This document shows positions 14,215-35,613 of a DNA stretch of 44,322 nt, one piece after another. Under the pieces are notes generated by a model. It had not been told where the DNA came from. It saw only the letters and a program-made list of their open reading frames with translations, and made no database searches. Source of the DNA: Oscillospiraceae bacterium (GTDB lineage: Bacteria; Bacillota; Clostridia; Oscillospirales; Oscillospiraceae); assembly GCA_015068395.1 (NCBI GenBank), contig SVKP01000048.1, forward strand, positions 1 through 44,322, written 5' to 3'. Numbering within the stretch: the first letter of the stretch is position 1; each line of letters opens with the position of its first letter. Position numbers and translations under genes: made by a program.

Positions 14215-14239
14215 TATGTTTTTACGAGGAGGCGAGAGT

Positions 14240-16404: not shown

Positions 16405-16987
16405 GAAAAAGCCGACGAGCGATCCTCGCTATCACAATACATGGAAGCTGCTCAAAAGGTATCGGGACGTTACATGGAGCATGGAAAGCTCGCTCGCCTA
16501 TCTGAAAAACGAGTTCCAGATGGAGTATGAGTGCAGCGTGGAGGAGTATCTTGAATCACTGTATGTTGCCGGCGCCGATTTGAGAGGGACCAGACTGGAG
16601 GATCATGCGCGGTGTATCGAGCGCAGCAGCAAAATGATCAATTTGCTCAAAACCTCCGTTGATTTGGTACGCACAAGGCACAAAAGGGGCGAAGAATATT
16701 ACTGGATCCTCTACTATACGTATCTTTCGCCGCAGGAATATGTCAATACAGACGAGATCATAGACCAGCTCCGGCCCCATATCCACGACATCAGCGAGAG
16801 GTCATACTTCCGCAAGCGCCAGAAAGCGGTGGAAACGCTCAGTAATGTGCTGTGGGGCTATACGGCAAAGGAAAGCATGGATATTCTGGAGCAGTTCTAC
16901 CCAGACGAGCTGCCGGCTGGAATAAAATCCGGGAAATGTTTGCCTGAGTGTGGGAGAGGAGAAAAATATCTACTATATAGCATATAG
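16388..16987 (+). CDS. Element protein, possible ArpU/RinA-like transcription regulator
   Basis: 199 residues, basic and helical. The C-terminal half 'ERSYFRKRQKAVETLSNVLWG' resembles the sigma-region-4-like helix-turn-helix of phage late activators (ArpU/RinA type), preceded by 'YYWILYYTYLSPQEY', a layout those proteins share. ATG 16388 overlaps the previous gene by 17 bp and follows a GGGGGG box. The track start at 16208 would bury it in the upstream gene. Transcription control of transfer is a reasonable guess only. Confidence 0.55.
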   Translation: MRTSSEKKPTSDPRYHNTWKLLKRYRDVTWSMESSLAYLKNEFQMEYECSVEEYLESLYVAGADLRGTRLEDHARCIERSSKMINLLKTSVDLVRTRHKRGEEYYWILYYTYLSPQEYVNTDEIIDQLRPHIHDISERSYFRKRQKAVETLSNVLWGYTAKESMDILEQFYPDELPAGIKSGKCLPECGRGEKYLLYSI

Positions 16988-16993
16988 CAGTGG

Positions 16994-17029
16994 CCAACGG
17001 CCGCTGGACACAACACCAGCGGCCGTTGG
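16994..17029 (+). terminator. Perfect 14-bp palindromic hairpin
   Basis: CCAACGGCCGCTGG, 8-nt loop ACACAACA, CCAGCGGCCGTTGG. It starts 7 bp after a stop codon, so termination is plausible, but no T-run follows. It could equally be an origin or nick-region hairpin of the element. Confidence 0.4.
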
Positions 17030-17070
17030 GGCCGCAGAATTCACTGCATTGTGCACTGAGAATATGACAA

Positions 17071-17098
17071 TTGCAAAAGTACCAAATTATGGTATAAT
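17071..17098 (+). promoter_or_regulatory. Sigma-70-type promoter
   Basis: TTGCAA, 16-bp spacer, perfect TATAAT in an AT-rich patch upstream of the small ORF at 17161. Confidence 0.55.
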
Positions 17099-17160
17099 GA
17101 AAATACAATGATGCTACTACGCCTGATTATGGAGCGATTCTGAGCGGTGAACCCGAAGCA

Positions 17161-17376
17161 ATGGAAGAAGCGTTCTTATGGGTTTCGGAAAAGCCATTTG
17201 CTCGCGGTCAAGATCTGTTAAAACACCTTTCTGAAAAGAATTTATCATCATTTCAAATGCACAGCAGACATGCACTATCACGTTTCTTTGCCTACCTAGC
17301 ATGGTACTTGCCTGATGATTTGCAATGTGTCGCGCAAGAGAAAAAACGGATTTATTCGCGGCTTGAAGAGATGTGA
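17161..17376 (+). CDS. Small hypothetical protein
   Basis: 71 codons from ATG 17161; the frame is open upstream to 17098 without an ATG, and no ribosome site precedes 17161. The sequence is helical ('SRHALSRFFAYLAWYLPDDLQ') with normal amino-acid use and AT-richer codons than its neighbours. I do not recognise it. It may be a remnant. The 120 bp after it hold only a 27-codon ORF broken by TAG. Confidence 0.35.
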   Translation: MEEAFLWVSEKPFARGQDLLKHLSEKNLSSFQMHSRHALSRFFAYLAWYLPDDLQCVAQEKKRIYSRLEEM

Positions 17377-17498
17377 GAAACAAGAAGAATTCTAGCGAGG
17401 GTGATATGCTAGAGCTTGCGCCCCTTTTGCTTTGCTTTCGCGCATAGCCTTCTGCATATTTTGCGATTATCTCGGCAAACTGCCCATGAGGTGATTCT

Positions 17499-17765
17499 AT
17501 GGCAAAGCAGGGCATGAAGCGTCCGGAGTGGACGCATACGCAGCCCCGTAATCAGGTCGATCCCGTACCCGAGCTGCATGGGAAAGCCAAACACGGGAAA
17601 GAGCGCGCCAATCCAATTATCAGCGGAACCGAAGGCGCAGACATGAAGGTGTTTCACACGGAGCGCCCGATACCTGCGGATGTGTATCCCGTCATTGATA
17701 CGGATTTGGCACGGGACAATCTGGAAAACGATATCCCCGCCGCTGATTTGAATGAACTGCAATAA
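17499..17765 (+). CDS. Small conserved element protein
   Basis: 88 residues, hydrophilic, start ATG 17499 after GAGGTGA. The pattern 'MKRPEWTHTQPRNQ..PVPELHGKAKHGKE.ANPIISGT' and the ending 'DLARDNLENDIPAADL' is typical of a small protein carried by Firmicutes conjugative elements. Function unknown. Confidence 0.65.
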   Translation: MAKQGMKRPEWTHTQPRNQVDPVPELHGKAKHGKERANPIISGTEGADMKVFHTERPIPADVYPVIDTDLARDNLENDIPAADLNELQ

Positions 17766-17768
17766 TGA

Positions 17769-17800
17769 ACACGCCGTCCGGCTTCGGCCGAACGGCGTGT
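17769..17800 (+). terminator. Hairpin terminator between convergent genes
   Basis: ACACGCCGTCCGGC-TTCG-GCCGAACGGCGTGT, 14-bp stem with one mismatch and a stable TTCG tetraloop, directly after the 17499 gene and facing the minus-strand gene at 17809. Short T-tract only. Confidence 0.6.
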
Positions 17801-17808
17801 TGACATCT

Positions 17809-18042
17809 TTAACAGCAGCACCCTCTGGAAATATCGGTTGCACTGATCTGAGGCGGAAGGCTCATGGTCATGATGCCGCTATACCGGATGCAGATTTGAT
17901 CTCCGACTTGAAAACGGCAGGCGTCCGGCGTATGCACCAGCACTTCTTGCCGGTTACAGCAGTCACAGACCAGCAAATCGCAGTCGCGGACTTGAAGCAC
18001 GCGCGCTTTCATGGATACAGATTCCATCGTAGCAGATTCCAT
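17809..18042 (-). CDS. Small cysteine-rich protein, partner of the vWA gene
   Basis: 77 residues with a beta-barrel-like core and Cys pairs: 'LQVRDCDLLVCDCCNRQEVLVHT', 'VGDQICIRYSGIMTMSLPPQIS', ending in CCC. This compact family is common in Clostridia next to other small genes; its function is unknown to me. ATG 18042 is used because GAGGAGGG lies 7 nt upstream; the track start at 18072 precedes that box. It follows the vWA gene on the same strand with 104 bp between them. Confidence 0.6.
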   Translation of the reverse strand: MESATMESVSMKARVLQVRDCDLLVCDCCNRQEVLVHTPDACRFQVGDQICIRYSGIMTMSLPPQISATDISRGCCC

Positions 18043-18146
18043 AGAGATCCCTCCTCTCTGCTCTCTGCTCATTTGGCAAGAGCCACGCTCCGCTTTGCGA
18101 GACGTGGCTCTTGCGTCCTTTATGCCATGTGCGGCAAATCAGCGGC

Positions 18147-19520
18147 TTACTGCACCGGATTACAGCATTCGAAGCCGTTGTCGATATAGTTGGAGATAAA
18201 ACGCGCCTTGAAGTTCCGCGTGTTGCACATAGCGTCTGCCGCGCCGGAGACGTCCAGACTCTCCGGGAGAACGAAGTTGATGCAGCGAACGTTCACGTTC
18301 TTGCAGGCGGGGCCGGTGTGCGCGGGGATGACCATGGTCTTCATGCCGCGCTTGTACTCGACGCCCTGATCGTCCACCTCGGTGAGGATCGCCGCAAGAG
18401 CGACCCGCCGGTTGGGACAGACGTTTTGCAGTGTGCAGCTCAGCTGCAAAACGCAGCCGAGGGAATCCATGACGACATTCCCGGCATCCACTTCCACCGT
18501 GTCCTCGCAGCCGCCGACTGTAAGCTCCACGGGCTCCGGGCAGCTCTCGGGGATCACGATGACGTCGCACTCCACATCCAGCTCCGGAGAGGGGAATGTC
18601 ACCTCGTTGCCCTCGTTGTCGCTGTAGGAGATGGACTCGTTCACCGCGACCGTGCCGGAGCAGGGGCCGACGTGCTCGACGTTGAACTCCAGCACCGCGC
18701 CTTCGCTCTGCGTGGCGCCCAGCTCATCGATCTGCCACTGCACCGTGGTATCGTTGAGTTGATTGGCCGATCCCTTGGTCGGCATGACCACGGAGGTGAT
18801 GCGGAAGCAGGGCGACACCGTATCGGTGATCACGACGTTCGTCGCGCCGGGCTTGGAAATGTTTCTGGCGAGGTCGGCAAACAGATCCTCCAGCTCCGCT
18901 TCGTCCGGCGTGATCGCCACATAGGCGGAGGCTGGCTTGGAAGCCCAGTCCTCCAGCGCGGAGACGTCCACGCCGCCTGTGCCGTTCAAACCGATGGCGT
19001 AGATGACCACACCCTCGGCTCTTGCCGCAGCGGCGATGGGACTGGGGTTGGGGCCGATGGTGGTGTTGCCGTCGGTGAACATCACCATGACGCGCGCGTT
19101 GGTCGAAGGCCCTTCCAGCAGCTCGGACGCCTTGGTAAAGGCGTCGGCATGGTTGGTGTTGCCGCCTGCGGTCAGGTCGTCCACCGCCGCTTTCAGGTCG
19201 CTCACTGAGGTGATCAACTGCGTGTCCTGCGTGGAGGTACTGGCAAAGCTGACGATACCGATGCGGCTTCCGGAACCGATCTGGCCGTCGTGGGCGCTGT
19301 CGGTCGCTTCATCAATAATGTCGATGAACGCCTTTGCGCCGGCCTTCAGGCTTGCCAGCGCACTTCCCTCCATACTCCCGGAGCGATCCAGAACCAGGAC
19401 GATATCGGTGGGATTGGTCAAAATATCGGGGGCCGCCGTCAAAGACAGCCTCACCTAAAAAGAGCCGTTGCAATCAATGCGCGTTGCGCTGAGCTCTTTG
19501 TTGGAACTGATAATTCCCAT
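18147..19520 (-). CDS. von Willebrand factor A domain protein with in-frame TAG at codon 22
   Basis: Natural start is ATG 19520 (MGIISSNKELSATRIDCNGSF) preceded by GGGAGG, but the 22nd codon is TAG (19457-19455), then the same frame continues from GTG 19454 for 435 residues. The long part has a vWA domain (about 12-200) with an intact metal site 'LDRSGSM' and 'FTDGNTT'. A DUF11-like beta domain ('VVITDTVSPCFRITSV') and a Cys-rich C-terminal domain ('CPNRRVALAAILTEVDDQG') follow. No signal peptide. vWA proteins bind partners through a metal-dependent site. The TAG may be a nonsense mutation (CAG to TAG is one step), an error, or bypassed by GTG initiation, which lacks a ribosome site. Confidence 0.75.
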
Positions 19521-19533
19521 TAGGCATTTCCTC

Positions 19534-19562
19534 CCTGAGCCCCGTTGTCACGAGGGCTCAGG
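19534..19562 (-). promoter_or_regulatory. Hairpin in the vWA leader
   Basis: CCTGAGCCC / GGGCTCAGG, perfect 9-bp stem with 11-nt loop, next to the ribosome site of the vWA gene. It could modulate translation or end the yyaL transcript. Confidence 0.4.
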
Positions 19563-19618
19563 ACATTGTATGCCGGAAAGGGGACGGGTGGCACACTGGT
19601 GCGACTGGCCCCGGCCAC

Positions 19619-21595
<1,977 letters not shown>

Positions 21596-21667
21596 TCATA
21601 TCACCACACATATTTTTGCGCCCATCTGGGGAAATATGCAAGAAGAATCTTGTTGTGGGAGGCTGTG

Positions 21668-23098
21668 ATGGAATCAGTTTGGTCAAAGGCCTGTGCCATT
21701 CCGCCGCGCGACGCGCTGCACGGAAACGCGGAAACGGAGGTCGCGGTGATCGGCGCGGGCATGGCGGGCATCCTGACTGCCGCCGCGCTGCAAAAGGCGG
21801 GCAAGCAGGTCGTCGTATTGGAGGCGAACCGGATCGGAAGCGGACAGACCCGCAATACGACGGCGAAAATCACCGCGCAGCACGCTCTGTTTGCGCGAAA
21901 GCTCATTGCGGCGCTGGGCGTGGACAGGGCGAAACAGTACGCCGCCGCCAACCTTGCCGCGGTGGAAGCCTATCGGGAGCTGATCCGCTCGGAGGGCATC
22001 GACTGCGACTTTGTGGAGACAAGCGCCCATGTCTACGGCGACGATGTGAGGCGCCTTGAACAGGAAGCGGAGGCAGAGAAACGGCTGGGGCTTCCGGCAT
22101 CGTTTATCCGCGAGCCGGACGTCCCCGGCGGCGTGGCGGGCGCGGTGCGCGTGGAGCGGCAGGCACAGTTCCATCCGCTCAAGTTTTTGAAGGCGCTTTC
22201 CGAACCATTGACGGTCTACGAAAACACGCCGGTGCGCCGCGTCACGGGCCACAAGCTGTTTACCGCGAACGGAACGGTGCGGACGGAGTGGGTCGTATTT
22301 GCCTGCCACTATCCGTTTGTCAATTTTCCGGGGCTGTACTTTGCGCGCATGCATCAGGAGCGCTCCTATGTGCTGGCGCTGGAAAACGCGGTGTGCCCGG
22401 ACGGCATGTGGATCGGCGCGGGCAGCGGCGGGTATTCCTTCCGCAAATACGGCGACCTGCTTCTGCTGGGCGGCGGGGGACACCGTACGGGCGAAAACCG
22501 TGAGGGTGGGCGCTACGAGGAACTCCGCGCTCGGGCGGCGGAGTGGTTTCCGGGCAGCCGCGAGGTTGCGCACTGGTCGGCGCAGGACTGTATAGCGGCG
22601 GACGGCGCGCCCTATATCGGGCAGTACGCGAAAAGCCGGCCGCACTGGTACGTGGCGACCGGCTTTGGAAAGTGGGGCATGACGGGTTCAATGGTCTCCG
22701 CCATGCTGCTGTGCGATATGATCTGCGGCAGGGAAAACCCGTATGCCGAGGCATTTGCGCCCGGCCGGTTTGACACGGAGACGGCGCGCGGCGTCGCCGG
22801 AGAGAGCGGACACGCAATCAAGGGCTTGACGAAGCAGCTTTTTCAAATTCCCGCCGTCCAGGAGGCAAGACTGCCGCGTGGACACGGCGGCATTGTGTTT
22901 TTGCATGGGAAGAAAGCCGGCGTTTACAAGGATGAGGACGGTGCCGTCCACGCCGTGGATATCCGCTGTCCGCATTTGGGCTGCCAGTTGGAGTGGAACC
23001 CGGACGAGAAGAGCTGGGACTGCCCGTGCCACGGTTCGCGGTTCGATTTCCGCGGCAAACTGATCTCCGGCCCGGCGCAGAACAACATCAAAGGATAA
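21668..23098 (+). CDS. FAD-dependent oxidoreductase with C-terminal Rieske [2Fe-2S] domain
   Basis: 476 residues. The N-terminal DAO-type FAD domain shows the dinucleotide motif 'VAVIGAGMAGILTAAAL', 'VVVLEANRIGSGQTRNTTAKI' and a late 'GFGKWGMTGSM' FAD contact. Residues about 400-476 form a Rieske domain with both cluster ligand boxes, 'CPHLGC' and 'CPCHGSRFD'. Such fusions are thought to pass electrons from an amine or other donor through FAD to the iron-sulfur centre; the substrate is unknown. ATG 21668 follows GGGAGG; the track start at 21257 runs back into the divergent yyaL gene. It is followed 64 bp later by the SOD gene, suggesting a redox-stress unit. Confidence 0.9.
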   Translation: MESVWSKACAIPPRDALHGNAETEVAVIGAGMAGILTAAALQKAGKQVVVLEANRIGSGQTRNTTAKITAQHALFARKLIAALGVDRAKQYAAANLAAVEAYRELIRSEGIDCDFVETSAHVYGDDVRRLEQEAEAEKRLGLPASFIREPDVPGGVAGAVRVERQAQFHPLKFLKALSEPLTVYENTPVRRVTGHKLFTANGTVRTEWVVFACHYPFVNFPGLYFARMHQERSYVLALENAVCPDGMWIGAGSGGYSFRKYGDLLLLGGGGHRTGENREGGRYEELRARAAEWFPGSREVAHWSAQDCIAADGAPYIGQYAKSRPHWYVATGFGKWGMTGSMVSAMLLCDMICGRENPYAEAFAPGRFDTETARGVAGESGHAIKGLTKQLFQIPAVQEARLPRGHGGIVFLHGKKAGVYKDEDGAVHAVDIRCPHLGCQLEWNPDEKSWDCPCHGSRFDFRGKLISGPAQNNIKG

Positions 23099-23162
23099 CA
23101 GCGAACCGGCCGCGGCAAAAACGCATATCCTGCAAGGAGAACAAAACAAGGAGTTGAGCCTG

Positions 23163-23657
23163 ATGCAGGGTAATCATCGGTTTGCGGGATATGTCTCGGT
23201 GCTTCAAAGAAGGCCGAACGCCTGGGCGATCATGGAGGGGAGTGCCGGGTATCCCGGCATTTCCGGTATTGTACGCTTTTACCAGACCAGATCCGGCGTT
23301 CTGGTGGCCGCCGAAGTATCCGGCCTGCCCGCAGGGGCGGAACCGTGCGGGGAGAAGGTTTTTGGCTTTCACATCCACAGCGGCGAGGAATGTGCGGGCG
23401 ACGCAGCAGATCCCTTTGCCGCCGCGCTGGGCCACTACGATCCAGACGGTTGCCCGCACCCGGAGCACGCGGGCGATATGCCGCCGCTTTTTTCAAACTG
23501 CGGATACGCGTTCCAGGTATTTCTGACAGACCGCTTCTCCGTGCGCGAGATCGTCGGCAGAACGGTCATCATCCATTCCGCGCCGGACGACTTTACCTCA
23601 CAGCCGTCGGGAAACGCGGGAAAGAAGATCGCCTGCGGACGGATCAGAACGCGCTGA
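23163..23657 (+). CDS. sodC: Copper/zinc superoxide dismutase family protein
   Basis: 164 residues. Copper ligands appear in 'GFHIHSG', 'GHYDP' and 'VIIHSAPDDF'; zinc ligands in 'PHPEHAGDMP'; and the disulfide Cys pair in 'EEC' and 'IACG'. The enzyme would convert superoxide to peroxide and oxygen. Two oddities: there is no signal peptide, so the product seems cytosolic, and the usual active-site Arg near the C-terminus (AGARIACG) is Lys (AGKKIACG), which may lower activity. ATG 23163 sits 8 nt after AAGGAG; the TTG at 23154 abuts the box. It is convergent with the DUF421 gene, with a 3-bp gap. Confidence 0.88.
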   Translation: MQGNHRFAGYVSVLQRRPNAWAIMEGSAGYPGISGIVRFYQTRSGVLVAAEVSGLPAGAEPCGEKVFGFHIHSGEECAGDAADPFAAALGHYDPDGCPHPEHAGDMPPLFSNCGYAFQVFLTDRFSVREIVGRTVIIHSAPDDFTSQPSGNAGKKIACGRIRTR

Positions 23658-23660
23658 CGC

Positions 23661-24338
23661 TTATTTGCCTTCAAACAGAGTTAGGTTGTTGTTTTCATCG
23701 CAGACGCCGAGGAAAATCTCCTTCGCGCTGTGAAAGCCCTGCGCGTCCAGTTGCTTTTGCAGCCATTTTTCCTCAAGCCCCCTCCGCTTGAGGTTTTCCG
23801 CCAGAATCCTTCCGTCCATGATGATCTCGGTGCAGATATGCTCCTGCGTCGGCGTCAAGCCGAGATCGGCGGGATTTGCAGGGCGCTTGCCGCTGACCGG
23901 GAGCACGGAGAGCTTGCCGTTATATTCAAAGACGGCGGTCTGAATGTCGTTCAGGTCAAAGTAGCCAAGCTGACGGCACAGCATCATGAACTCGCTGAGG
24001 TCGAGCTTGGCCTTTTTCATATTTTCGCGGTACAGCTTGCCGCTGTCCATCAAAATGGTGGGCGTGCCGTTGATATACTTCCGGCTCTTGGGCAGCCTGC
24101 TTGTGACCAGACTGAGAATGATTGCGACGACGCCGTAGACGGCCATGGCGATCAGCGGCTTCCACGGGGTTTCCAGCTCCGTCGCGAGCTCCGACGCAAT
24201 GGAACCGATGGTGATGCCCGAAATATAGTCGAAAAAGTCAAGCTGCGCGACCTGCTTGTGTCCCATGAGCTTTGCGATCACAAACAGGGCGGCCGCGGAC
24301 AGCAGCGCCGTCAGGACAACTTGAAGGAACTCCATCAT
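23661..24338 (-). CDS. DUF421 (YetF family) membrane protein
   Basis: 226 residues: three hydrophobic helices at the N-terminus, then a cytosolic YetF-type alpha/beta domain ('DYISGITIGSIASELATE', 'NGTPTILMDSGKLYRENMKKAKLDLSEFMMLCRQLGYFDLNDI', 'AVFEYNGKLSVLP'). These are the standard DUF421 hallmarks. Homologues in Bacillus are linked to sporulation and envelope functions, without a defined activity. ATG 24338 follows CCGGAG; the track start at 24374 has no box. It appears to be cargo in the element. Confidence 0.88.
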   Translation of the reverse strand: MMEFLQVVLTALLSAAALFVIAKLMGHKQVAQLDFFDYISGITIGSIASELATELETPWKPLIAMAVYGVVAIILSLVTSRLPKSRKYINGTPTILMDSGKLYRENMKKAKLDLSEFMMLCRQLGYFDLNDIQTAVFEYNGKLSVLPVSGKRPANPADLGLTPTQEHICTEIIMDGRILAENLKRRGLEEKWLQKQLDAQGFHSAKEIFLGVCDENNNLTLFEGK

Positions 24339-24360
24339 TTGTCTCCGGTATAGTTTTGTG

Positions 24361-24807
24361 TTAGTGTATCCCAAAGGCGCGGGAGATAGTCAGTTGTTTT
24401 CGCAAATGGATCGCTGCGTTGCAATTGTGATGATTGTATCGCCCAACTGTGTCAGGATCACACCCAACAAATTCAGCTGATCCACGCTCAGCTTGCAGGC
24501 AATCGCGTTCGCCAGGGCGGTGATGGTTGTTGTCAACTCCAGCGGGTTCATATCGGTATCCCTCCTCTTCATTGTATGCGCCGCACATGAATCTGGCAAA
24601 ACGCACGGAAAGAGATTCCGAATCATCATCGAATGGCAAATCAATAACTTGAACCTCATAATTCTCGGCGATTAATGCTGAGGCATCTTGATAAAAGCTC
24701 TGAAAGCACATCTTACGTGAAAAGGCGCGGTATGCTTGAAACGCCATTTTGTACAAGATATTCTTCTCGTCATCCGTAAGTCGAAATTGGACTGCTTTTT
24801 TGCCCAT
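24361..24807 (-). CDS. Ribbon-helix-helix-like element protein
   Basis: 148 codons from ATG 24807 (MGKKAVQFRLTDDEKNIL). The first 25 residues have the strand-then-helix pattern of ribbon-helix-helix DNA-binding or MobC-like accessory proteins, and the next 65 are helical and acidic. The last 55 codons overlap the whole DUF6774-like gene in another frame and look incidental, so the frame may run on past a lost stop. Four 11-bp direct repeats end exactly at the start codon, suggesting autoregulation or binding by this product; no normal ribosome site is present. Its promoter could be TTGGAT-17-TATCTT on the minus strand near 24880-24910. Confidence 0.45.
   Translation of the reverse strand: MGKKAVQFRLTDDEKNILYKMAFQAYRAFSRKMCFQSFYQDASALIAENYEVQVIDLPFDDDSESLSVRFARFMCGAYNEEEGYRYEPAGVDNNHHRPGERDCLQAERGSAEFVGCDPDTVGRYNHHNCNAAIHLRKQLTISRAFGIH
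24390..24551 (-). CDS. Small element protein, DUF6774-like
   Basis: 53 residues, 'MNPLELTTTITALANAIACKLS' then 'LNLLGVILTQLGDTIITIA'. This layout of two short amphipathic helices is that of a small family frequently found next to conjugation genes (DUF6774 by my recollection). ATG 24551 follows GAGGAGGG with good spacing. It is nested in another frame inside the RHH-like ORF. Function unknown. Confidence 0.6.
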   Translation of the reverse strand: MNPLELTTTITALANAIACKLSVDQLNLLGVILTQLGDTIITIATQRSICENN

Positions 24808-24851
24808 GGCAGGAAATTGGCAGAGAATTGGCAGGAAATTGGCAGGGTTTT
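24808..24851 (+). repeat. Four tandem 11-bp direct repeats (iteron-like)
   Basis: GGCAGGAAATT, GGCAGAGAATT, GGCAGGAAATT, GGCAGGGTTTT without gaps. The 11-bp period is about one helical turn, so a protein could bind along one face. The block lies between the start codon of the RHH-like gene and the -35 box of the rightward promoter. Confidence 0.75.
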
Positions 24852-24856
24852 GCCAT

Positions 24857-24885
24857 TGCAATAGGGGGGCGGCTGTGTTAAGATA
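24857..24885 (+). promoter_or_regulatory. Candidate promoter of the transfer operon
   Basis: TTGCAA, exactly 17 bp, TAAGAT, reading toward the type IV secretion genes. Its -35 box begins 5 bp after the 11-bp repeats. Confidence 0.5.
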
Positions 24886-24888
24886 AGC

Positions 24889-25029
24889 ATGCTCAAAACT
24901 GTATCCAAAATCAAATACGACCGTGACGGGACGCCAGCCGGCGTCCTTTTTTCTTTGCCACGGGTTGAAAAGGCGCTCGCTCCGAGCGCTTTTTTCGTGT
25001 TTGGAACAATGAAAAGGAGGTCATTCTAA
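24889..25029 (+). CDS. Possible leader peptide ORF spanning two terminators
   Basis: 46 sense codons from ATG 24889 (MLKTVSKIKYDRDG..) through both terminator hairpins to TAA 25027-25029, 2 bp before the TTG start of the first transfer gene. No good ribosome site lies in front, and the predicted transcription start is at or just after the ATG, so translation is doubtful. If translated, a ribosome would cover the hairpins. Confidence 0.25.
   Translation: MLKTVSKIKYDRDGTPAGVLFSLPRVEKALAPSAFFVFGTMKRRSF
24929..24952 (+). terminator. Intrinsic terminator 1 upstream of the transfer operon
   Basis: GGACGCC-AGCC-GGCGTCC, perfect 7-bp stem followed by TTTTTT. Confidence 0.8.
24973..24995 (+). terminator. 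Intrinsic terminator 2 upstream of the transfer operon
   Basis: GCGCTCG-CTC-CGAGCGC, perfect 7-bp stem followed by TTTTTT, only 20 bp after terminator 1. No promoter is visible between it and the first transfer gene at 25032. Confidence 0.8.
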
Positions 25030-25031
25030 GT

Positions 25032-25409
25032 TTGAAAGAGCAAAAAAGCCCTCTGCTGAAGCGTCAGCGGAGAATCGTGGTGGGCGAGAAGCTGTGTACG
25101 GCTTTTCTCGCGGTTTCATTTGCCGGCGCGCTTACCGTCCCTGCCTTTGCGGCAGACACCATTTGGACGAAAGCCAGCGCCATCATGCAGGACGTCTACT
25201 CGCAGATCGTTACCATCTCGACCATAGCGGCGGTCGTATGCGCGTCGGTGGCTCTGCTGCTGATGAACTTCTCGCGCTCTGACCGTACCGTGCAGGAGTC
25301 GCGCTCCTGGCTGAAGCGTATTATCGTGAGCTGGGCGATATTGAACGGCCTGGGCTTCATCATGGCTTATATCACGCCCTTCTTTGCAGGCGGAAAGTAT
25401 ACGCCGTAA
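25032..25409 (+). CDS. VirB2-like pilin/conjugation protein
   Basis: 125 residues starting at TTG 25032 with AAGGAGG 11 nt upstream. A signal peptide ('FLAVSFAGALTVPAFAA', cleavage after AFA) is followed by a short mature chain with two hydrophobic helices joined by a basic loop ('NFSRSDRTVQESRSWLKR'), the architecture of TrbC/VirB2 pilins. It is the first gene of the transfer operon and is followed 3 bp later by the VirB6-like gene. Likely the pilus or channel subunit of the type IV secretion system. Confidence 0.75.
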   Translation: MKEQKSPLLKRQRRIVVGEKLCTAFLAVSFAGALTVPAFAADTIWTKASAIMQDVYSQIVTISTIAAVVCASVALLLMNFSRSDRTVQESRSWLKRIIVSWAILNGLGFIMAYITPFFAGGKYTP

Positions 25410-25412
25410 CCT

Positions 25413-26123
25413 ATGGGCATCTTAGACGGCATCGTTGAATGGATCGCGGAACAGATCATGCACGGCCTCGATTTGATCAACACATCAGTTTTGGGCGCGC
25501 TTGGCTGCGACATGGATGTGTTCCTGCGATACTTTCCCGCCGCGAAGACCATGTATGACGTGTTCGTGGCTCTGGCAATCGGCATTATCCTGCTGCTGTG
25601 GGTCTGGAACCTGTTCAAAAATTTCGGGTTTGGTACGGGCAACGAGGCGGAGGACCCGATCAAGCTGAGTATGCGTTCGGTGCTGTTCATTCTGCTCGCG
25701 TACTATTCCGACGACATCGTTAACGCCGCCCTGAAAATCGGCGGAACGCCCTATGACTGGATACTCACATCATCCCTGCCGGAATTGAGCTTTGCGGACT
25801 TCAACTCGGTCATGCTGACCATCATCGGCGTATGCGCGAACGGCGCGGTGACGCTGATCGTCCTGATCCTGCTGCTGATACTGGCTTGGAACTACATCAA
25901 GCTGCTCTTTGAGGCGGCGGAGCGCTATGTGCTGCTGGGCGTACTTGTGTTCACGGCTCCCGTGGCGTTTGCGCTCGGCGCGTCGCAATCGACGGTAAAT
26001 GTATTCAAAAGCTGGTGCCGTATGTTTGCGGGTCAGATGTTCCTGCTTCTGATGAACGCGTGGTGTTTGAAGCTCTTTACCTCTATGGTAGGGACGTTCA
26101 TCGCTAACCCCTTGTCACTCTGA
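25413..26123 (+). CDS. VirB6/TrbL-like integral membrane conjugation protein
   Basis: 236 residues with about six transmembrane segments (for instance 'VFVALAIGIILLLWVWNLF', 'GAVTLIVLILLLILAWNYI', 'VLLGVLVFTAPVAFALGAS'). The late 'SQSTVNVFKSWCRMFAGQMFLLLMNAW' element is typical of the VirB6/TrbL family in Firmicutes elements. It forms the inner-membrane channel of the transfer machine. No clear Shine-Dalgarno, so translation is probably coupled to the pilin gene. Confidence 0.78.
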   Translation: MGILDGIVEWIAEQIMHGLDLINTSVLGALGCDMDVFLRYFPAAKTMYDVFVALAIGIILLLWVWNLFKNFGFGTGNEAEDPIKLSMRSVLFILLAYYSDDIVNAALKIGGTPYDWILTSSLPELSFADFNSVMLTIIGVCANGAVTLIVLILLLILAWNYIKLLFEAAERYVLLGVLVFTAPVAFALGASQSTVNVFKSWCRMFAGQMFLLLMNAWCLKLFTSMVGTFIANPLSL

Positions 26124-26173
26124 TCGGAGGGATCGAAACGAAACAAGCAAATCATATAATAAGGATAATCTGT

Positions 26174-27895
26174 ATGGCGCTCCTGATGGGGGCGCTTTTT
26201 GCTGCTCCTGCGTCTGCCATCACGGAAAGCGAGGTGGAGGCGCAGGCGGCGGCGTCCGGCAAAGAAGCGGTCGTAGGAAACGTGCTGATCTGGTTCCTTT
26301 GCGCCGTTGGTTTTCTCAAGGTCTCGCAGAAGATCGACAGCTTTATGCAGGGCATCGGTCTCAACGTGGGACACACGGGCGGCTCGCTTTTGGCGGAGGC
26401 GCTGATTGCCACGCGCGGCATCAAGATGGTGACGGGCGGCGGAGGTCACACCTCGGGCGGCAATCACTCCGGCGCCGCCGGAGGCAACGGCATCGGAAGC
26501 TACTTCAAGGGCGGGCTTGTTGGCATGGCAAGCAGGCGGGCGGCGAACAACGCCGTCAAGACGGCGACGAGCAATACCACGGTCAACTCTCCTGCGTTTT
26601 CTTCCTCGTCGACATCCGCGCATAGCTCACACAAAGCGTCGAATACGGCGAAAAGCACCCAGAACACCGCGCAGAGCGTCAGACATGACGGGCAAGGTCC
26701 CATTGCCGCGCAGAGCTCCTCGCTGGGTGAGATGCCGCGCCTGAGCGACCAAACGGGGCAGGCACCTGTGTTTGCCGCAGATTCGGCGGATGTGACCGCA
26801 ACTCCGGCGACGGTTGATTTGACCGTGCCGCATGAGCCTGCGCCAATCAATGCCCCTTCGCGGGAACCCGCACAGACGGATATCCTGCGGACTGATACTG
26901 AGCGGACAGACTTCGAGCCGAGGGATGCTTCGCCGATGGACGCCGCCGCGAGTACGGCAGCAACTACGATTGCCGCGAAAACTGCGACCGCATCGGAAAC
27001 CGAGGCCGAGCCTCCCATCATTCTGTATGACGCTCCGCAGGTCGGAATGGCACAGAACACCGCGGCTGCGGAAGTGACCGCGGGCGTCGCCGCTGTTGAG
27101 AGCGCGGAGCAGGCTTCTGTCCCACCAGACAGCACGCCGATTGCACCGACAGCGTCGGATGTCACACTTTCAGAGGGGGGAGACAGCATTGCCGTCAACA
27201 GCTCGGAGCAGATGAACGGGTACTCGACTGAGCGGGAGACGCTGCAAGGCGGGAACGGAACCGTTATTCAGACAGGCCCCGTGGTAAAAACACAGACGAA
27301 CGAACAGTCGAGTGCAAAGTCGTACAGCCGCGCCTCTACGCAAAGCAGTACGGTCAATAACGGCTCGCATACCACGCACTCCGCCGGTAGGCTGATTCCG
27401 TCCGTCCACAACTCCTTTAAGAGCTATGGCATCGGCGGCGCGATGTTTATGAAGTCGCTCTCTCAGGGCGGCGGCTTCGCCAACGAGGTCATCAGCCGCG
27501 TCGCGCGCGGTGATATCCAGAGCACAGGCACGATCACCGGCGAGATGGCTTCGCACGCGCTCAACTCTTATATGGGTATTACCGCTATGGGGAAGGATGA
27601 AAGCTCGCCGGCCTTATACAACGTCGAGATCGGCGGAGGCAGGATCAGCGGCGTCGAGGTCCCCGCGGGAACACATCAGGACGTTCAGTTTTGCATGTAC
27701 GACGCCGCCAAGTACAACGCGCCGGAGGGCGAGCACACGAAGGTCGTCACGGCGGACGGGGCGACGTGGTACAAGCAATACGAGCAGGACGCTGTGGATC
27801 GCAAGCCCTATCATGCGCCGGATGGCACGATCGCCTACAATGAAACCATCGTAAAGCGCATGCCTCACCCTCCGCAGCGCAAAGACCGAATGTAG
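26174..27895 (+). CDS. Secreted/membrane conjugation protein with long low-complexity linker
   Basis: 573 residues. It starts with a hydrophobic stretch ('MALLMGALFAAPASA'), then a second helix ('VLIWFLCAVGFLKVSQ') and a Gly/Ser region. A roughly 300-residue Ser/Thr/Ala/Pro linker follows, and a folded C-terminal domain (about 400-573) with 'IGGAMFMKSLSQGGGFANEVISRVARGDI'. This is a typical operon member in such elements; I do not know its role. The start is doubtful: GGAGGG (26126-26131) sits 43 nt upstream and the frame is open back to it, but without a canonical start codon, so the positive n-region of the signal peptide appears to be missing. Confidence 0.65.
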   Translation: MALLMGALFAAPASAITESEVEAQAAASGKEAVVGNVLIWFLCAVGFLKVSQKIDSFMQGIGLNVGHTGGSLLAEALIATRGIKMVTGGGGHTSGGNHSGAAGGNGIGSYFKGGLVGMASRRAANNAVKTATSNTTVNSPAFSSSSTSAHSSHKASNTAKSTQNTAQSVRHDGQGPIAAQSSSLGEMPRLSDQTGQAPVFAADSADVTATPATVDLTVPHEPAPINAPSREPAQTDILRTDTERTDFEPRDASPMDAAASTAATTIAAKTATASETEAEPPIILYDAPQVGMAQNTAAAEVTAGVAAVESAEQASVPPDSTPIAPTASDVTLSEGGDSIAVNSSEQMNGYSTERETLQGGNGTVIQTGPVVKTQTNEQSSAKSYSRASTQSSTVNNGSHTTHSAGRLIPSVHNSFKSYGIGGAMFMKSLSQGGGFANEVISRVARGDIQSTGTITGEMASHALNSYMGITAMGKDESSPALYNVEIGGGRISGVEVPAGTHQDVQFCMYDAAKYNAPEGEHTKVVTADGATWYKQYEQDAVDRKPYHAPDGTIAYNETIVKRMPHPPQRKDRM

Positions 27896-27905
27896 GAGAA
27901 AACCA

Positions 27906-30818
27906 ATGAAAAACGAAGAACGCGATGTTTACATCATTCCGCCCAATTTTATAGAAGGAGGCACTTTGATGGGCGGAATGCTGAAAACGCGCAATGCCAT
28001 TGAAGCCGCTATTCTTGGAACAGTGGTCGGCTGGCCGGTACTGCATCTGAGCTTTTCGCTCCAGACTCGCATCATCATCCTATGCCTCACGGCGCTGCCG
28101 TTGGTGCTGTTCGCCCTGATCGGCGTATCGGGTGAGAGCCTGTCGTCGTTTTTCCTGCTGCTTTTGAGCTGGTTACGCAACCGAAGGCAGCTCAAAAGCG
28201 ACGGTACGACAGACGGAAAGCGGAAGAAAAGTATGCTTCCAAGCTGGTCTAAGGGTGAAAAGGTCAAATTACCGGACGAAACGCCCAAAAGCCGCAGGCG
28301 CGTTCAAATAGACGTCAAAAAGCGCCAGATGGAGCAGCACAAGACCTTTCTGCCGAAGGAAGATACGGTCCGCCCGCTCAATGCGCTCGCGGACTATGTG
28401 CCAATCGAACGTATCAGGAACGGCGTCATTTACACGCGGGATCACCGCTATGTCAAAATCGTAGAGGTGATCCCCGTCAACTTCCTGCTGCGAAGCGCCC
28501 AGGAGCAGCGCAGTATCATCTACAGCTTTATCAGCTACCTGAAGATCGCGCCGGTCAAGATCCAGCTCAAGGTACTGACCAAGCGCGCCGACATAGACCG
28601 CCACGTTACCGCGGTGCGCAGGGAGCTGGAACACGAGACAGACCCGCATTGCAGGATGCTTCAGGAGGACTATTTGCGCCTCATTTACCAGCTCGGTTCC
28701 CGTGAAGCTATCACACGACGGTTCTTTCTCATTTTTGAGTATGAACCGCTGCCCGGCACGCGGCGGGGAAATGAAGAGCAGGAAGCCGTTTCCCAGCTTC
28801 AAACGGCGGCGCGCTCAGCGGCAAACTACCTCAGACAGTGCGGAAACAGCGTGATCAGCCATGAGGATGAGGACGAAGCCATGGCGGAGATCCTTTACCA
28901 TGTGCTCTGCCGCAGGGAAAGCGACGAGCAGCCGTTCCGTGAAAAGGTCAAGAGGGTCCTCGGCGATTACCTTGCCGCGGGCAGATCGCTGGAAAACGTA
29001 CCGGCAAACGAGTTCTTTGCGCCCTCCTCGCTTGACTTCACCCACGGCAGATACATCTGTGTGGACGGCACCTACTATGCCTATCTGCTTGTTCCGTCTG
29101 ACGGTTACAAGTCCCAGGTCATGGCGGGGTGGCTCTCGCTGCTGGTCAACGCCGGCGACGGCATCGACCTCGACGTGTTCCTGACGCGCCAGCCGAAGGA
29201 GCGCATGATACGAAAACTCGGACAGCAGCTTCGCATCAACCGCAGCAAGATACGCGAGACCAGCGACACGAACACGGATTTTGATGACCTTGAAGGCGCG
29301 ATCCGCAGCGGATATTTCCTCAAAGACGGCCTCGGCAACAACGAGGATTTCTACTATTTGAATCTCCTCATCACCGTAACGGCGGACAATGTGGAGGATC
29401 TGGAGTGGAAATGCGCCGAGATGCGAAAGCTCCTGCTCTCGCAGGATATGAATGTGCAGCCCTGCTCCTTCTGTGAGGAGCAGGCTTTTTTGTCGGCGCT
29501 CCCTCTGGCATCGCTGGAGCATCGACTGTTTGAACGGTCAAAACGGAACGTGCTGACGCTGGGCGCTGCGAGCTGCTATCCCTTCACCAGCTATGAGATG
29601 TGTGATGATAACGGTATTTTGCTCGGGGTCAATCGGCACAACAACTCCCTCATCATCGTGGATATCTTCGATTCCCGCGTCTACAAGAACGCAAATATCG
29701 CGGTACTTGGCACCAGCGGCGCGGGAAAGACCTTTACCTTGCAGCTTATGTCCACGAGAATGCGGCGCAAGGGCATACAGGTCTTTATCATCGCGCCGCT
29801 CAAGGGCCACGAGTTCCACCGCGCATGCACGAGCATTGGCGGAGAATTTATTCAGATATCCCCGGCGTCGAGCAACTGCATCAACGTCATGGAGATCCGC
29901 AAGGTGGACAAGACCGCCGACGAGCTGCTGGACGGCCCGGGCATTGAGAAATCCATGCTTGCCGCGAAGATACAGCGGCTCCATATCTTTTTCAGTCTCC
30001 TGATTCCCGATATGACGCACGAGGAGCGGCAGCTTTTGGACGAGGAGCTGATTAGAACCTACGCAAACCACGGCATCACGCATGAGAACAGCTCGCTCAT
30101 CAACCCTGTCGACCCCGAGCAATACCGCATCATGCCGGTACTGGGCGATCTCTACGAGGTGCTCATGGAGTCCCCGGAGACACGACGGCTCGCCAACATC
30201 ACCAACAGGCTTGTCCACGGCTCCGCCAGCACGTTTAATCAGCAAACCAATGTGTCGCTGGATAACAAATACACGGTGCTCGATATATCCGAGCTGTCCG
30301 GCGATCTTCTGACTGTGGGGATGTTCGTCGCGCTTGACTACGTCTGGGACAAGGCAAAGGAGAACCGCACCGAGGAAAAAGCCATCTTCATCGACGAGTG
30401 CTGGCAGTTGATCGGCGCGAACAGCAACCGCCTCGCCGCCGAGTTTGTGCTGGAGATTTTCAAGATCATTCGCGGCTATGGCGGCAGTGCGATCTGCGCG
30501 ACGCAGGACATGAACGACTTTCTTTCCCTGGAGGACGGCAAGTACGGCAAGGGCATCATCAATGTCTGCAAGACCAAGATCCTGCTCAATCTGGAGGATG
30601 AGGAAGCGCGGCGCGTCCAATCCATCCTGCACCTCTCGGATACCGAAGTCATGGAGATCACGCACTTTGAGCGCGGCAACGGTTTGATTTCCACCAATAA
30701 CAACAATGTGACCGTGGAGATCAAGTGCAGCCAGATGGAGAAGGAGATGATCACCACCGACCGCCGCGAGCTGCAGGAACTGCTGGACCGCGCGGCAGAG
30801 GAGCGCGCGGCGTTGTAA
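27906..30818 (+). CDS. virB4: PrgI-VirB4 fusion: type IV secretion ATPase
   Basis: 970 residues. Residues 1-80 resemble PrgI ('DVYIIPPNFIEGGTLMGGM', then two transmembrane helices), usually a separate small protein. Residues from about 165 on are VirB4/TraC: N-terminal domain, then P-loop ATPase with Walker A 'GTSGAGKT' near 603, Walker B 'AIFIDECWQLIG' near 826 and 'GSAICATQDMNDFL'. It is the conserved energy source of conjugative secretion, docked at the inner membrane. AGGAG precedes ATG 27906. A second strong box (AAGGAGG) precedes an internal ATG at 27969 (MGGMLKTRN). Confidence 0.9.
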   Translation: MKNEERDVYIIPPNFIEGGTLMGGMLKTRNAIEAAILGTVVGWPVLHLSFSLQTRIIILCLTALPLVLFALIGVSGESLSSFFLLLLSWLRNRRQLKSDGTTDGKRKKSMLPSWSKGEKVKLPDETPKSRRRVQIDVKKRQMEQHKTFLPKEDTVRPLNALADYVPIERIRNGVIYTRDHRYVKIVEVIPVNFLLRSAQEQRSIIYSFISYLKIAPVKIQLKVLTKRADIDRHVTAVRRELEHETDPHCRMLQEDYLRLIYQLGSREAITRRFFLIFEYEPLPGTRRGNEEQEAVSQLQTAARSAANYLRQCGNSVISHEDEDEAMAEILYHVLCRRESDEQPFREKVKRVLGDYLAAGRSLENVPANEFFAPSSLDFTHGRYICVDGTYYAYLLVPSDGYKSQVMAGWLSLLVNAGDGIDLDVFLTRQPKERMIRKLGQQLRINRSKIRETSDTNTDFDDLEGAIRSGYFLKDGLGNNEDFYYLNLLITVTADNVEDLEWKCAEMRKLLLSQDMNVQPCSFCEEQAFLSALPLASLEHRLFERSKRNVLTLGAASCYPFTSYEMCDDNGILLGVNRHNNSLIIVDIFDSRVYKNANIAVLGTSGAGKTFTLQLMSTRMRRKGIQVFIIAPLKGHEFHRACTSIGGEFIQISPASSNCINVMEIRKVDKTADELLDGPGIEKSMLAAKIQRLHIFFSLLIPDMTHEERQLLDEELIRTYANHGITHENSSLINPVDPEQYRIMPVLGDLYEVLMESPETRRLANITNRLVHGSASTFNQQTNVSLDNKYTVLDISELSGDLLTVGMFVALDYVWDKAKENRTEEKAIFIDECWQLIGANSNRLAAEFVLEIFKIIRGYGGSAICATQDMNDFLSLEDGKYGKGIINVCKTKILLNLEDEEARRVQSILHLSDTEVMEITHFERGNGLISTNNNNVTVEIKCSQMEKEMITTDRRELQELLDRAAEERAAL

Positions 30819-31016
30819 TACGCATTATCACGCATCAATGCGCAAAAACAGCGTTGTTTCACTCTGTCAGCGCACCGAAAGGCGTATTACCACGCTTTAA
30901 TACGCATTATTCCTTTTTCCGTGGCAAGGTAATACGCAGTAATGCGTGCTACTGCGTATTGCTGCGTATTTGCCTGCCGCGGAGAGGAAATTACACGCAT
31001 TACTACGCATTAGGAG
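30819..31016 (+). repeat. Cluster of direct and inverted ACGCATTA-type repeats
   Basis: The roughly 200-bp gap between virB4 and the next gene holds no ORF but at least eight copies of ACGCATTA-like words (ACGCATTA, ACGCATCA, ACGCAGTA) and their complements (TGCGTATT, GGCGTATTA), often as TAATACGCA. The last two copies end at the ribosome site of the 31026 gene. Confidence 0.7.
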
Positions 31017-31025
31017 GCTTTGAGC

Positions 31026-31556
31026 TTGAAAACACGAAGTCAAATCTATTCCGGGGAGGCATTGAGCATCCTGCGGGATCTCTCCACCTATCACTGTATG
31101 GCGCGCGGGCAGCTTCTGCGGATGCACCCGGGGAAAGAGAATAAGGTCGACAGGCTAATATCCTATCTGGCACGTCAGAAACGGATTCGCGAGGATGGCG
31201 CGTATTGTTACGCGGTGAGCGAGGACGAGGACGCGAAGGACAAGAAGGTGATCGCCGCGCTCTGGGTGCTGGTGGACTTTATCGACCGCGTCGACTTCCA
31301 CGCCGCCGGCAATTTTCCCGCGCAGGTCATATTCCTTGCAGACGACGAGATCTACGAGATCGCCTATGTCGAAAAGGGTAGGGAGGCGCTGGTCTCCCAG
31401 CTTTTGGCGGAGAAGAACGCGAAGGACTCCCTTTTTATCGTCGTCGTGGAATCGGAGGAGCAGATCGCAATGCTCGGCGGCGGCAACATCGTTGGCTACT
31501 GTACCGTTTCCGAGGACGGTCAGGTCAAATACTATCAGAAGGAGGAAGGAGAATGA
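31026..31556 (+). CDS. DUF5697-like conjugative element protein
   Basis: 176 residues, start TTG 31026 placed 8 nt after AGGAGG (the TTG at 31020 is too close). The N-terminus 'TRSQIYSGEALSILRDLSTYHCMARGQLLRMHPGKENKVDRLISYLARQKRI' looks like a winged helix, followed by an alpha/beta domain. This is the DUF5697 pattern found in Firmicutes elements, perhaps a transcription regulator. It is preceded by the unusual repeat cluster, which could be its target. Confidence 0.65.
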   Translation: MKTRSQIYSGEALSILRDLSTYHCMARGQLLRMHPGKENKVDRLISYLARQKRIREDGAYCYAVSEDEDAKDKKVIAALWVLVDFIDRVDFHAAGNFPAQVIFLADDEIYEIAYVEKGREALVSQLLAEKNAKDSLFIVVVESEEQIAMLGGGNIVGYCTVSEDGQVKYYQKEEGE

Positions 31557-31562
31557 GCTTTT

Positions 31563-32213
31563 TTGGATAAATCCGGCATTTCAAAGAGAATCATCGACAT
31601 TTTGGACGAGATATCGCGGCTGAACAACACGCTGTACTCGCTCAATACGCGCGGTGTGCAGCAATACCCGGAGAATTTTGAGGTATTGAGCACGGACGCC
31701 GCGCTCAGGGGGGAGCAGATCGCCTGCCGGCTGCGGCATCTCGTTTACACCGTGTCGAATAAGCCGCAAAATCAATACCTTGAGAGCGCGGCGCAGGCGC
31801 AGGGTGTCGACATTTGGGAAAAGGGCGGCGTAATGGAGATCAAGCTGCCGGGGCTTTTGGCGAAGCGCGAGAAGTGGAAAAGCATGGAGTTTCTGATGGA
31901 GCCGTTTACGGCGGCCATGAACCGCTATGCGCTGGAAAACACGCCCCCGCGCTATGAGCAGTGCGTCGTCTGCTTCATCAGCGTCTATGACAGAGCACTC
32001 CCGGACAGAGCGGTGCGCGACACGGACTCCGCCGAGCTCAAGCGGTATCTTGACGTGATCTCGTCGTTTCTTCTCACGGACGACAGCGCGCTCTACTGCG
32101 ATTCCTACAGCACGATAGAGCTTGGCGAGGAGTGCTGTACGCGCATTGTCATTATGGAGAAGTCGAGGTTTCCGAGCTGGATCGCGGAGCGGGATAAGGC
32201 GGAAACAGCATAG
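31563..32213 (+). CDS. DUF6100-like conjugative element protein
   Basis: 216 residues from TTG 31563, 6 bp after the previous gene. It has helical 'IIDILDEISRLNNTLYSLN' at the start and 'QIACRLRHLVYTVSNK' after it, then an alpha/beta domain ('YEQCVVCFISVYDRALPDRAVRDTDSAELKRYLDVISSFLL'). It resembles DUF6100 proteins of conjugative elements. No known activity. The ribosome site is the AAGGAG at 31544-31549. Confidence 0.6.
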   Translation: MDKSGISKRIIDILDEISRLNNTLYSLNTRGVQQYPENFEVLSTDAALRGEQIACRLRHLVYTVSNKPQNQYLESAAQAQGVDIWEKGGVMEIKLPGLLAKREKWKSMEFLMEPFTAAMNRYALENTPPRYEQCVVCFISVYDRALPDRAVRDTDSAELKRYLDVISSFLLTDDSALYCDSYSTIELGEECCTRIVIMEKSRFPSWIAERDKAETA

Positions 32214-32243
32214 AAAGCTGCGCTTTTTCGACGGAAAAAACAT

Positions 32244-32282
32244 ATCCGGTTTTTGAGCAAAAATCGAAGAAAAAAACCGGAT
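32244..32282 (+). terminator. Hairpin after the DUF6100-like gene
   Basis: ATCCGGTTTTT / AAAAACCGGAT, 11-bp stem with a 17-nt loop. A second hairpin (CGCCCCAGGT / ACCTTGGGCG, 32348-32373) precedes the next gene. Together they fill the 178-bp gap; neither has a classic plus-strand T-tract. Confidence 0.4.
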
Positions 32283-32391
32283 GGGCGTAAAACAGCTTTC
32301 AAAGCGCATAAACAAAGGTTTCCTTTCCTGTCTGCAAGGCAAAAAAACGCCCCAGGTATATTCACCTTGGGCGAAAAACTGAGGTAAAGCG

Positions 32392-33534
32392 ATGAACGAG
32401 ATCGACAAATCGCTCCCGCCCGCTGACTCCTTTGGCGGTGAGCTGCTGGCGCTGATCGCCATGACGGGTGAGTTCCCCGCGACACAGGCAGACCGGCTCA
32501 CCGGCTCTCCGTCCTACCACGAAAAGCTGCTGCTAAATCTCAAGCAGGAGAGGTTTATCCGTTCCTACGTCAAGAACGGGCTTCGTGGCTATCGACTGAC
32601 TGCCCCTGCCAAACGATTGTTGCTTTCCCAATTTCCGACTCTCTTGCCTTTCTTTACAGGTAATGCTGTGACAAACGCGCCAAAGTACGATGTCAAAAGG
32701 CGGCTGCGGCTCCACAATGTATCAAGCGTGCTTGTGACGATGCACAACGCCGGTGTCGCCATACTGCCGTGGGAAAAGCCGGATGTTTTCCAGCTGCCGA
32801 AACAGGGAGGCGAGGTCAGCCTGGACAGGCCGACCTTCTACACCTCGCGCGAGGTCAAGGCGGTGGGGCCGAGGGGGAAGAACGTGACAAGCTCACGCTC
32901 GACCGGCGTGTTGATCGCTGACGACGAGGTGCTGTCCGTGTATAACACGGGTGACGTGGAGATGAGGTGGTATACCGCCTCCGAACTGCGGATGAAGACG
33001 CTGCTCAATGAAGAACTCTGCCAGTCGCGCTTATCGGCCCGGTGCGGGAAAAAGGACGTGTCCGCGCTCATGCTGTCCGACAACATGGAGCACATGGCTG
33101 CTTTTATGACGGGGGGCAAACGTCAAAAGCACAAATACGACATTCTCAACGGCGCGTTCCGACACTTCTATTATCTGACGAACGACCACGCCGGCGAGGT
33201 TCTGCTCCGAACGCTTTGTGACCGACGCATTCGTGATACGCTGGATCGGGTGCTGACCGACGGGCTTTCTCCGCGCGTGCCGGACGCCTCCGTCGAAAAC
33301 GACGGCTTTGACGAAAACGGTGATCCCGTGCTTCTCGGCTATCTGTGCGATATGCCGCGGATACTGCGCTTTAGCAATGCGCTCACGAGGGAAGGCAGGG
33401 AAGGGACGCTTCTCTGCTTTGATTTTCAGGTGGAGGCGATCCGCGCTGTTTGCGGCGAGAGCATGACGATCACACCGATCTATCTTGAAAGCTATGAAGG
33501 GAGCGACATCTATCGACTGGAAAAAGTGGATTAG
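32392..33534 (+). CDS. Conjugative element protein, replication-relaxation-like winged helix
   Basis: 380 residues. The N-terminal region 'LLALIAMTGEFPATQADRLTGSPSYHEKLLLNLKQERFIRSYVKNGLRGYRLT' is a winged-helix DNA-binding module of the kind seen in replication-relaxation (PF13814) proteins. The middle part is basic and the C-terminal part alpha/beta. ATG 32392 follows GAGG. The 3' end overlaps the VirD4 gene by 41 bp, so both are translated together. A DNA-processing accessory role is inferred. Confidence 0.6.
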   Translation: MNEIDKSLPPADSFGGELLALIAMTGEFPATQADRLTGSPSYHEKLLLNLKQERFIRSYVKNGLRGYRLTAPAKRLLLSQFPTLLPFFTGNAVTNAPKYDVKRRLRLHNVSSVLVTMHNAGVAILPWEKPDVFQLPKQGGEVSLDRPTFYTSREVKAVGPRGKNVTSSRSTGVLIADDEVLSVYNTGDVEMRWYTASELRMKTLLNEELCQSRLSARCGKKDVSALMLSDNMEHMAAFMTGGKRQKHKYDILNGAFRHFYYLTNDHAGEVLLRTLCDRRIRDTLDRVLTDGLSPRVPDASVENDGFDENGDPVLLGYLCDMPRILRFSNALTREGREGTLLCFDFQVEAIRAVCGESMTITPIYLESYEGSDIYRLEKVD

Positions 33535-35605: not shown

Positions 35606-35613
35606 TAATTTTT

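Follow-up and report, generated by a model that had tools for sequence, protein, structure and literature searches.

A phage-late-type activator and one-turn-phased repeats as the probable transfer switch of a family of gut and rumen Clostridia elements

The late activators of Gram-positive phages, such as RinA of phi11, Ltr of phi13, Alt of TP901-1 and the ArpU/DUF1492 proteins, are encoded by a small gene directly upstream of the operon served, which contains packaging and lysis genes, and some four direct repeats separate the gene from the promoter. Four such repeats, between regulator gene and late promoter, are bound by the Ltrs of phages; the repeats lie at -76 to -32 in TP901-1 and at -107 to -42 in phi13, and their deletion abolishes the activity of the phi13 late promoter (PMC13123087). 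In Tn916, leader control is exerted by terminators located between the promoter and the conjugation genes, together with canT antitermination (PMC11658703), the element being controlled by excision and cis RNA. As for the Tn1549/CTn-type ICEs of Clostridia, characterised by a CD1110/CD1115 T4SS, these carry many sigma-like regulators (PMC3158075) and their promoters have been noted as unidentified (PMC7438776). In the literature that we found, which covers the field in part and makes priority not fully checkable, an activator-iteron promoter is not described for such elements.

The stretch of DNA analysed here (the window) comprises 44,322 nucleotides and comes from an Oscillospiraceae metagenome-assembled genome (MAG) with 5.5% contamination. 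A first transfer gene encoding a VirB2-like small membrane protein (25032-25409, plus strand) is followed by T4SS genes, the transfer operon (25413-37122, plus strand, NCBIfam) including a VirB4-like ATPase (27906-30818), a VirD4 of the CD1115 family (33485-35605) and an S1-domain protein (35602-37122). The VirD4 passes the CD1115 cut-off (403.6 bits against 250), which the element shares with the Tn1549/CTn type; the VirB4 is related to CD1110, its best-scoring family, but stays below the cut-off of that family (260.3 bits against 325). It is probably inserted in sigK, because the SigK frame at 13278-13946 ends in an abnormal C-terminus. The skin elements likewise use sigK as an insertion site.

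A sequence-only reading had placed four head-to-tail 11-bp repeats between the start of a small ribbon-helix-helix (RHH)-like ORF and a rightward promoter, and these were confirmed at 24807-24850 (plus strand): iteron 1, TGGCAGGAAAT (24807-24817), iteron 2, TGGCAGAGAAT (24818-24828), iteron 3, again TGGCAGGAAAT (24829-24839), and iteron 4, TGGCAGGGTTT (24840-24850), all of the form TGGCAnnnnnn. No other tandem array in the window scores as high (TRF score 66). The four iterons span about -84 to -41 relative to the inferred transcript start and are proposed here as an activator operator with family-wide equivalents. The transfer promoter follows at 24856-24884 (plus strand) and consists of a -35 TTGCAA (24856-24861), a 17-bp spacer and TAAGAT (24879-24884) preceded by the TG of an extended -10 (TGTTAAGAT). 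Since its -35 is weak it was missed by a generic promoter scanner, although relatives throughout the element family retain it.

For the comparison, 80 relatives of the first transfer gene were used, their promoters being aligned on the -10 without gaps and 32 non-redundant ones kept. The resulting consensus is TTGGCAC..GTT.TGC.aTTg...cGtaAA......TGnTAaAAT, with the TT of the -35 and the TG, TA and T of the extended -10 invariant in all 32 and a second copy of TTGGC located 22 bp upstream in the family signature. Repeats phased at 11 bp and at a constant distance from the extended -10 are a family-wide trait of the transfer promoter; in most relatives the clean units are less numerous than in the window, often two placed 22 bp apart, and the strict 11-bp unit differs from the 18-bp repeats of phi13. 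The unit is TTGGCA in most elements, TTTGCAC in L004 and L005, TTGAGAC in L007, L020, L021 and L084, TTAGAC in L064 and L100, and TTTTCCC in L107. A strict promoter pattern searched against 391 genomes of the class matched the window alone because it demands bases that vary among relatives, which makes it useless for counting. A run of about ten TTGGAATT-type units of 11 bp follows the regulator gene of L111 (minus strand, downstream of 1498).

Between the promoter and the first transfer gene the window contains two intrinsic terminators (24928-24947 and 24967-24995, both on the plus strand). At least one such terminator was found in 25 of the 32 leaders and at least two in 13, with 38 in total compared to a mean of 0.6 in shuffles; the sequence between the hairpins varies, which suggests that they are conserved as a function and not as a sequence, and an Rfam search of seven related loci, leaders included, gave no match. 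Leader terminators set this family apart from the phage late activator systems and are shared with Tn916, with the difference that here they directly follow an activator-type promoter. A conserved ATGCTCAAAACTGTAnCC stretch is present at the inferred transcript start, ahead of the terminators, and the S1-domain (RNA-binding) protein mentioned above may be a partner of the leader RNA.

The gene adjoining the repeats on their left is the RHH-like ORF (24361-24807, minus strand, 148 codons), whose ATG (24807-24805) is overlapped by iteron 1. Neither a Shine-Dalgarno sequence in front of it nor a scanned promoter upstream of it was found, its N-terminal NikA-like resemblance in Pfam is weak and below the cut-off (E = 0.22), and the single-sequence AlphaFold model of its product has a pLDDT of 44. 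The 3' third of the ORF is overlapped by a DUF6774 gene (24390-24551, minus strand, PF20564, E 1.7e-11) with its own Shine-Dalgarno sequence. Only one of the 80 relatives, L002, contains the RHH gene, and a search of viral contigs, plasmids and 394 genomes of the order yielded no homologue beyond the window and L002.

The origin of this arrangement can be traced by comparison with L003, a sister element from a buffalo-rumen MAG that is 95-99% identical to the window. Its homology with the window covers 16195-16939, restarts at 24796 and continues to the right, with a 648-codon gene in L003 where the window contains an insertion of about 7.9 kb (16940-24795). The inserted stretch has a GC content of 0.62 compared to about 0.52 and carries VWA, DsbH/YyaL-like, FAD/Rieske, SodC, YetF, DUF6774 and RHH-like genes. 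Its right junction at 24796 falls on codon 4 of the RHH-like ORF, whose 5' end thus lies at the junction, and is common to L002, an independent assembly 99.0% identical over 3851 bp, which makes an assembly artefact at this point unlikely; the left junction at 16940 has a single witness. In L003 the promoter region is 99.6% identical and all four repeats are present, with no RHH gene. Going by these comparisons, the RHH-like ORF is a chance neighbour of the repeats, the last gene of the inserted cargo.

The stretch between the activator gene and the iteron promoter (16940-24795 in the window, the upstream sides of L022-L081) appears to be a recurrent cargo site, occupied in other elements by genes that were named by eye as XRE regulators, ATPases, radical-SAM-like and DUF4297-like genes, and in one Lachnospiraceae group a divergent XRE gene adjoins the iterons. 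In L138-L147 (e.g., L139), which have cargo between regulator and transfer promoter, a second iteron promoter with the same unit is often still present directly behind the regulator gene.

On the other side of the insertion lies an ArpU/DUF1492-like gene of 199 aa (16388-16987, plus strand), the conserved part of which stops at 16939, where the insertion starts, and whose product we propose as the repeat binder. In 38 of the 80 relatives the repeats are preceded, within 3 kb, by a homologue of this regulator, usually as the gene adjoining them; where an iteron promoter has no regulator within 3 kb, one is present elsewhere in the genome in 11 of 12 cases, and L062 has it on the contig of the promoter, 3.4 kb further upstream. 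Searching other genomes with the regulator alone recovered remote versions (22-38% identity), several of which precede a VirB2-like gene. Still more remote relatives in L117, L120-L129 and L145, apparently on other mobile elements without a VirB2-like gene, have 11-bp-phased arrays of other sequence directly behind them.

Among 43 members of the regulator family, profile matches were obtained to phrog_1558 (42 of 43), phrog_36 (13), phrog_248 (9) and DUF1492 (11), those to phrog_36 and phrog_248, which are annotated as phage transcriptional regulator or activator, being weak; the window regulator itself matches phrog_1558 alone at the 0.001 limit (2.9e-10). Its AF2 model (pLDDT 79) has a C-terminal helix-turn-helix, and the top Foldseek matches among viral models were transcriptional regulator, DUF1492 and Sigma70 proteins, with a probability of 0.95-1.0 but E values of 0.05-0.15, none reaching E <0.001. 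Sequence and fold searches of the PDB were uninformative, the fold search giving no match, and a search of viral contigs with the regulator alignment gave one partial match only. By profile similarity the regulator can be placed with the phage late-activator superfamily (RinA/Ltr/ArpU/DUF1492), its homology to characterised activators being remote and the identity to them too low for assignment to a subfamily. The likeness to the phage systems lies in this profile kinship, with a possible kinship of fold, and in the arrangement of gene, repeats and promoter, from which the window gene has been displaced by the insertion; the difference is that the genes served here are those of conjugation (T4SS).

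The link between regulator and repeats is also seen in the periodicity of the DNA behind the regulator genes. In the 80 bp following 47 non-redundant regulators the Stouffer z was 14.3 at lag 11 and 8.8 at lag 22, every other lag giving 1.3 or less, and for the 20 most remote regulators (<40% identity) it was 12.0 at lag 11; in the controls, random windows of those loci had a mean z of -0.14 and the leader region gave zero.

Further evidence comes from residue 138, an arginine in the window regulator that starts the C-terminal helix of the predicted helix-turn-helix and is, among all columns of alignment A1, the one most strongly associated with repeat class. Arg138 pairs with GC-core (GGCA-type) units, and Pro, Ala, Ser, Thr or Lys with others. 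The phi coefficient was 0.81 when automated and 0.91 after two hand corrections, and fully automated unit calling gave a table of 24/1 versus 3/16 (Fisher p 3.6e-8, ignoring relatedness), the three of 19 non-Arg regulators with a GC-containing unit under the automated rule including one phase artefact (L007). On a tree built with residue 138 and its neighbours masked, six independent changes of the residue were found, and with each of the six the repeat class changed as well (p 0.031, the lowest value that six can give), in a post hoc comparison for which the repeat classes were labelled by hand after the data had been seen. Regulators fetched later agree, 15 of them with Arg and that of L145 with Ser and AGTCCGA units every 11 bp.

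These observations bear directly on which protein occupies the array. According to the sequence-only reading, a single protein bound to the repeats could control transfer, and the RHH-like protein would both repress its own gene and act on the transfer promoter. The part concerning the repeats as the control site of the transfer promoter stands; the RHH-like protein as their binder does not, since L003 keeps repeats and promoter without that gene, which is nearly missing from the relatives, and since the repeats travel with the ArpU-like regulator and co-vary with its recognition helix. On that reading the RHH gene and the repeats should be kept together in sister elements, where the repeats are kept and the gene is missing, and an outcome it named as contrary evidence, loss of the repeats in sisters having both genes, does not apply because the sisters lack the RHH gene. 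RHH proteins often bind tandem repeats, the ORF is adjacent to the array to the point of sharing its start codon with it, and the XRE-type gene at the same place in the Lachnospiraceae group indicates that local regulators can end up there, but with an ORF devoid of a Shine-Dalgarno sequence and of a scanned promoter, and with weak evidence for the RHH fold, we consider this explanation very improbable.

Even less probable is a structural role for the array, or one in replication or transfer (as an oriT-like sequence or RepA iterons), in place of that of a transcription operator. The element does carry a RepA_N/DUF6017 gene nearby (14216-15232), and RepA_N replicons also use iterons, but the register of the array to the -10 is fixed, its unit co-varies with the ArpU-like regulator, and arrays stand between regulator and operon even where the regulators are very different. 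More serious, though still unlikely, is the possibility that the ArpU-like regulator on the iterons is a repressor of transfer, or a dual repressor/activator, since the array abuts the -35 and the sign of control cannot be told from sequence. Against this, activator-dependent promoters typically combine a weak, poorly conserved -35 with a conserved extended -10, the profile relatives of the regulator, and apparently those by fold, are phage transcriptional activators, and the array is located upstream of the core promoter, not over it.

The array, the family-wide promoter, its association with the regulator, their co-variation and the insertion are established by sequence comparison. The repeats retained in L003 without the RHH gene, the conserved promoter, the regulator association, the 11-bp period and the co-variation together make an activator-plus-iteron module the likely transfer switch: there is a good probability that the repeats are the operator of the phage-late-type activator encoded at 16388-16987 and switch the transfer operon, where binding, activation, the direction of control and attenuation are what we infer. 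An element-encoded DUF1492/ArpU/RinA-like activator with a predicted sigma-region-4-like helix-turn-helix would line up in several adjacent copies along a single face of the DNA, each helical turn of 11 bp taking one, in a row ending just upstream of the weak -35, and would recruit RNA polymerase to the extended -10 promoter of the conjugation operon. The two leader terminators would constitute a second, post-initiation control, and might attenuate transcription or be overcome by antitermination as in Tn916. In the window copy the activator would now act in trans and from a distance, because 7.9 kb of cargo landed between its gene and the operator. Such insertions mean that a function read from the immediate neighbour gene can mislead.

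For the family of gut and rumen ICEs as a whole, we lean, with some reserve, towards a conjugation switch made of a phage-late-type activator and fast-evolving operators phased at one helical turn, in which changes from R138 to P, A or T may have repeatedly re-tuned operator specificity, so that each element would have a switch of its own, shielded from those of co-resident elements. How transfer is switched on in Tn1549/CTn-like elements of gut Clostridia, which are carriers of resistance genes, is apparently undescribed in the literature found, and the present analysis provides a named candidate activator, a candidate binding site and a one-residue test of specificity, tying ICE transfer to the control of phage late genes.
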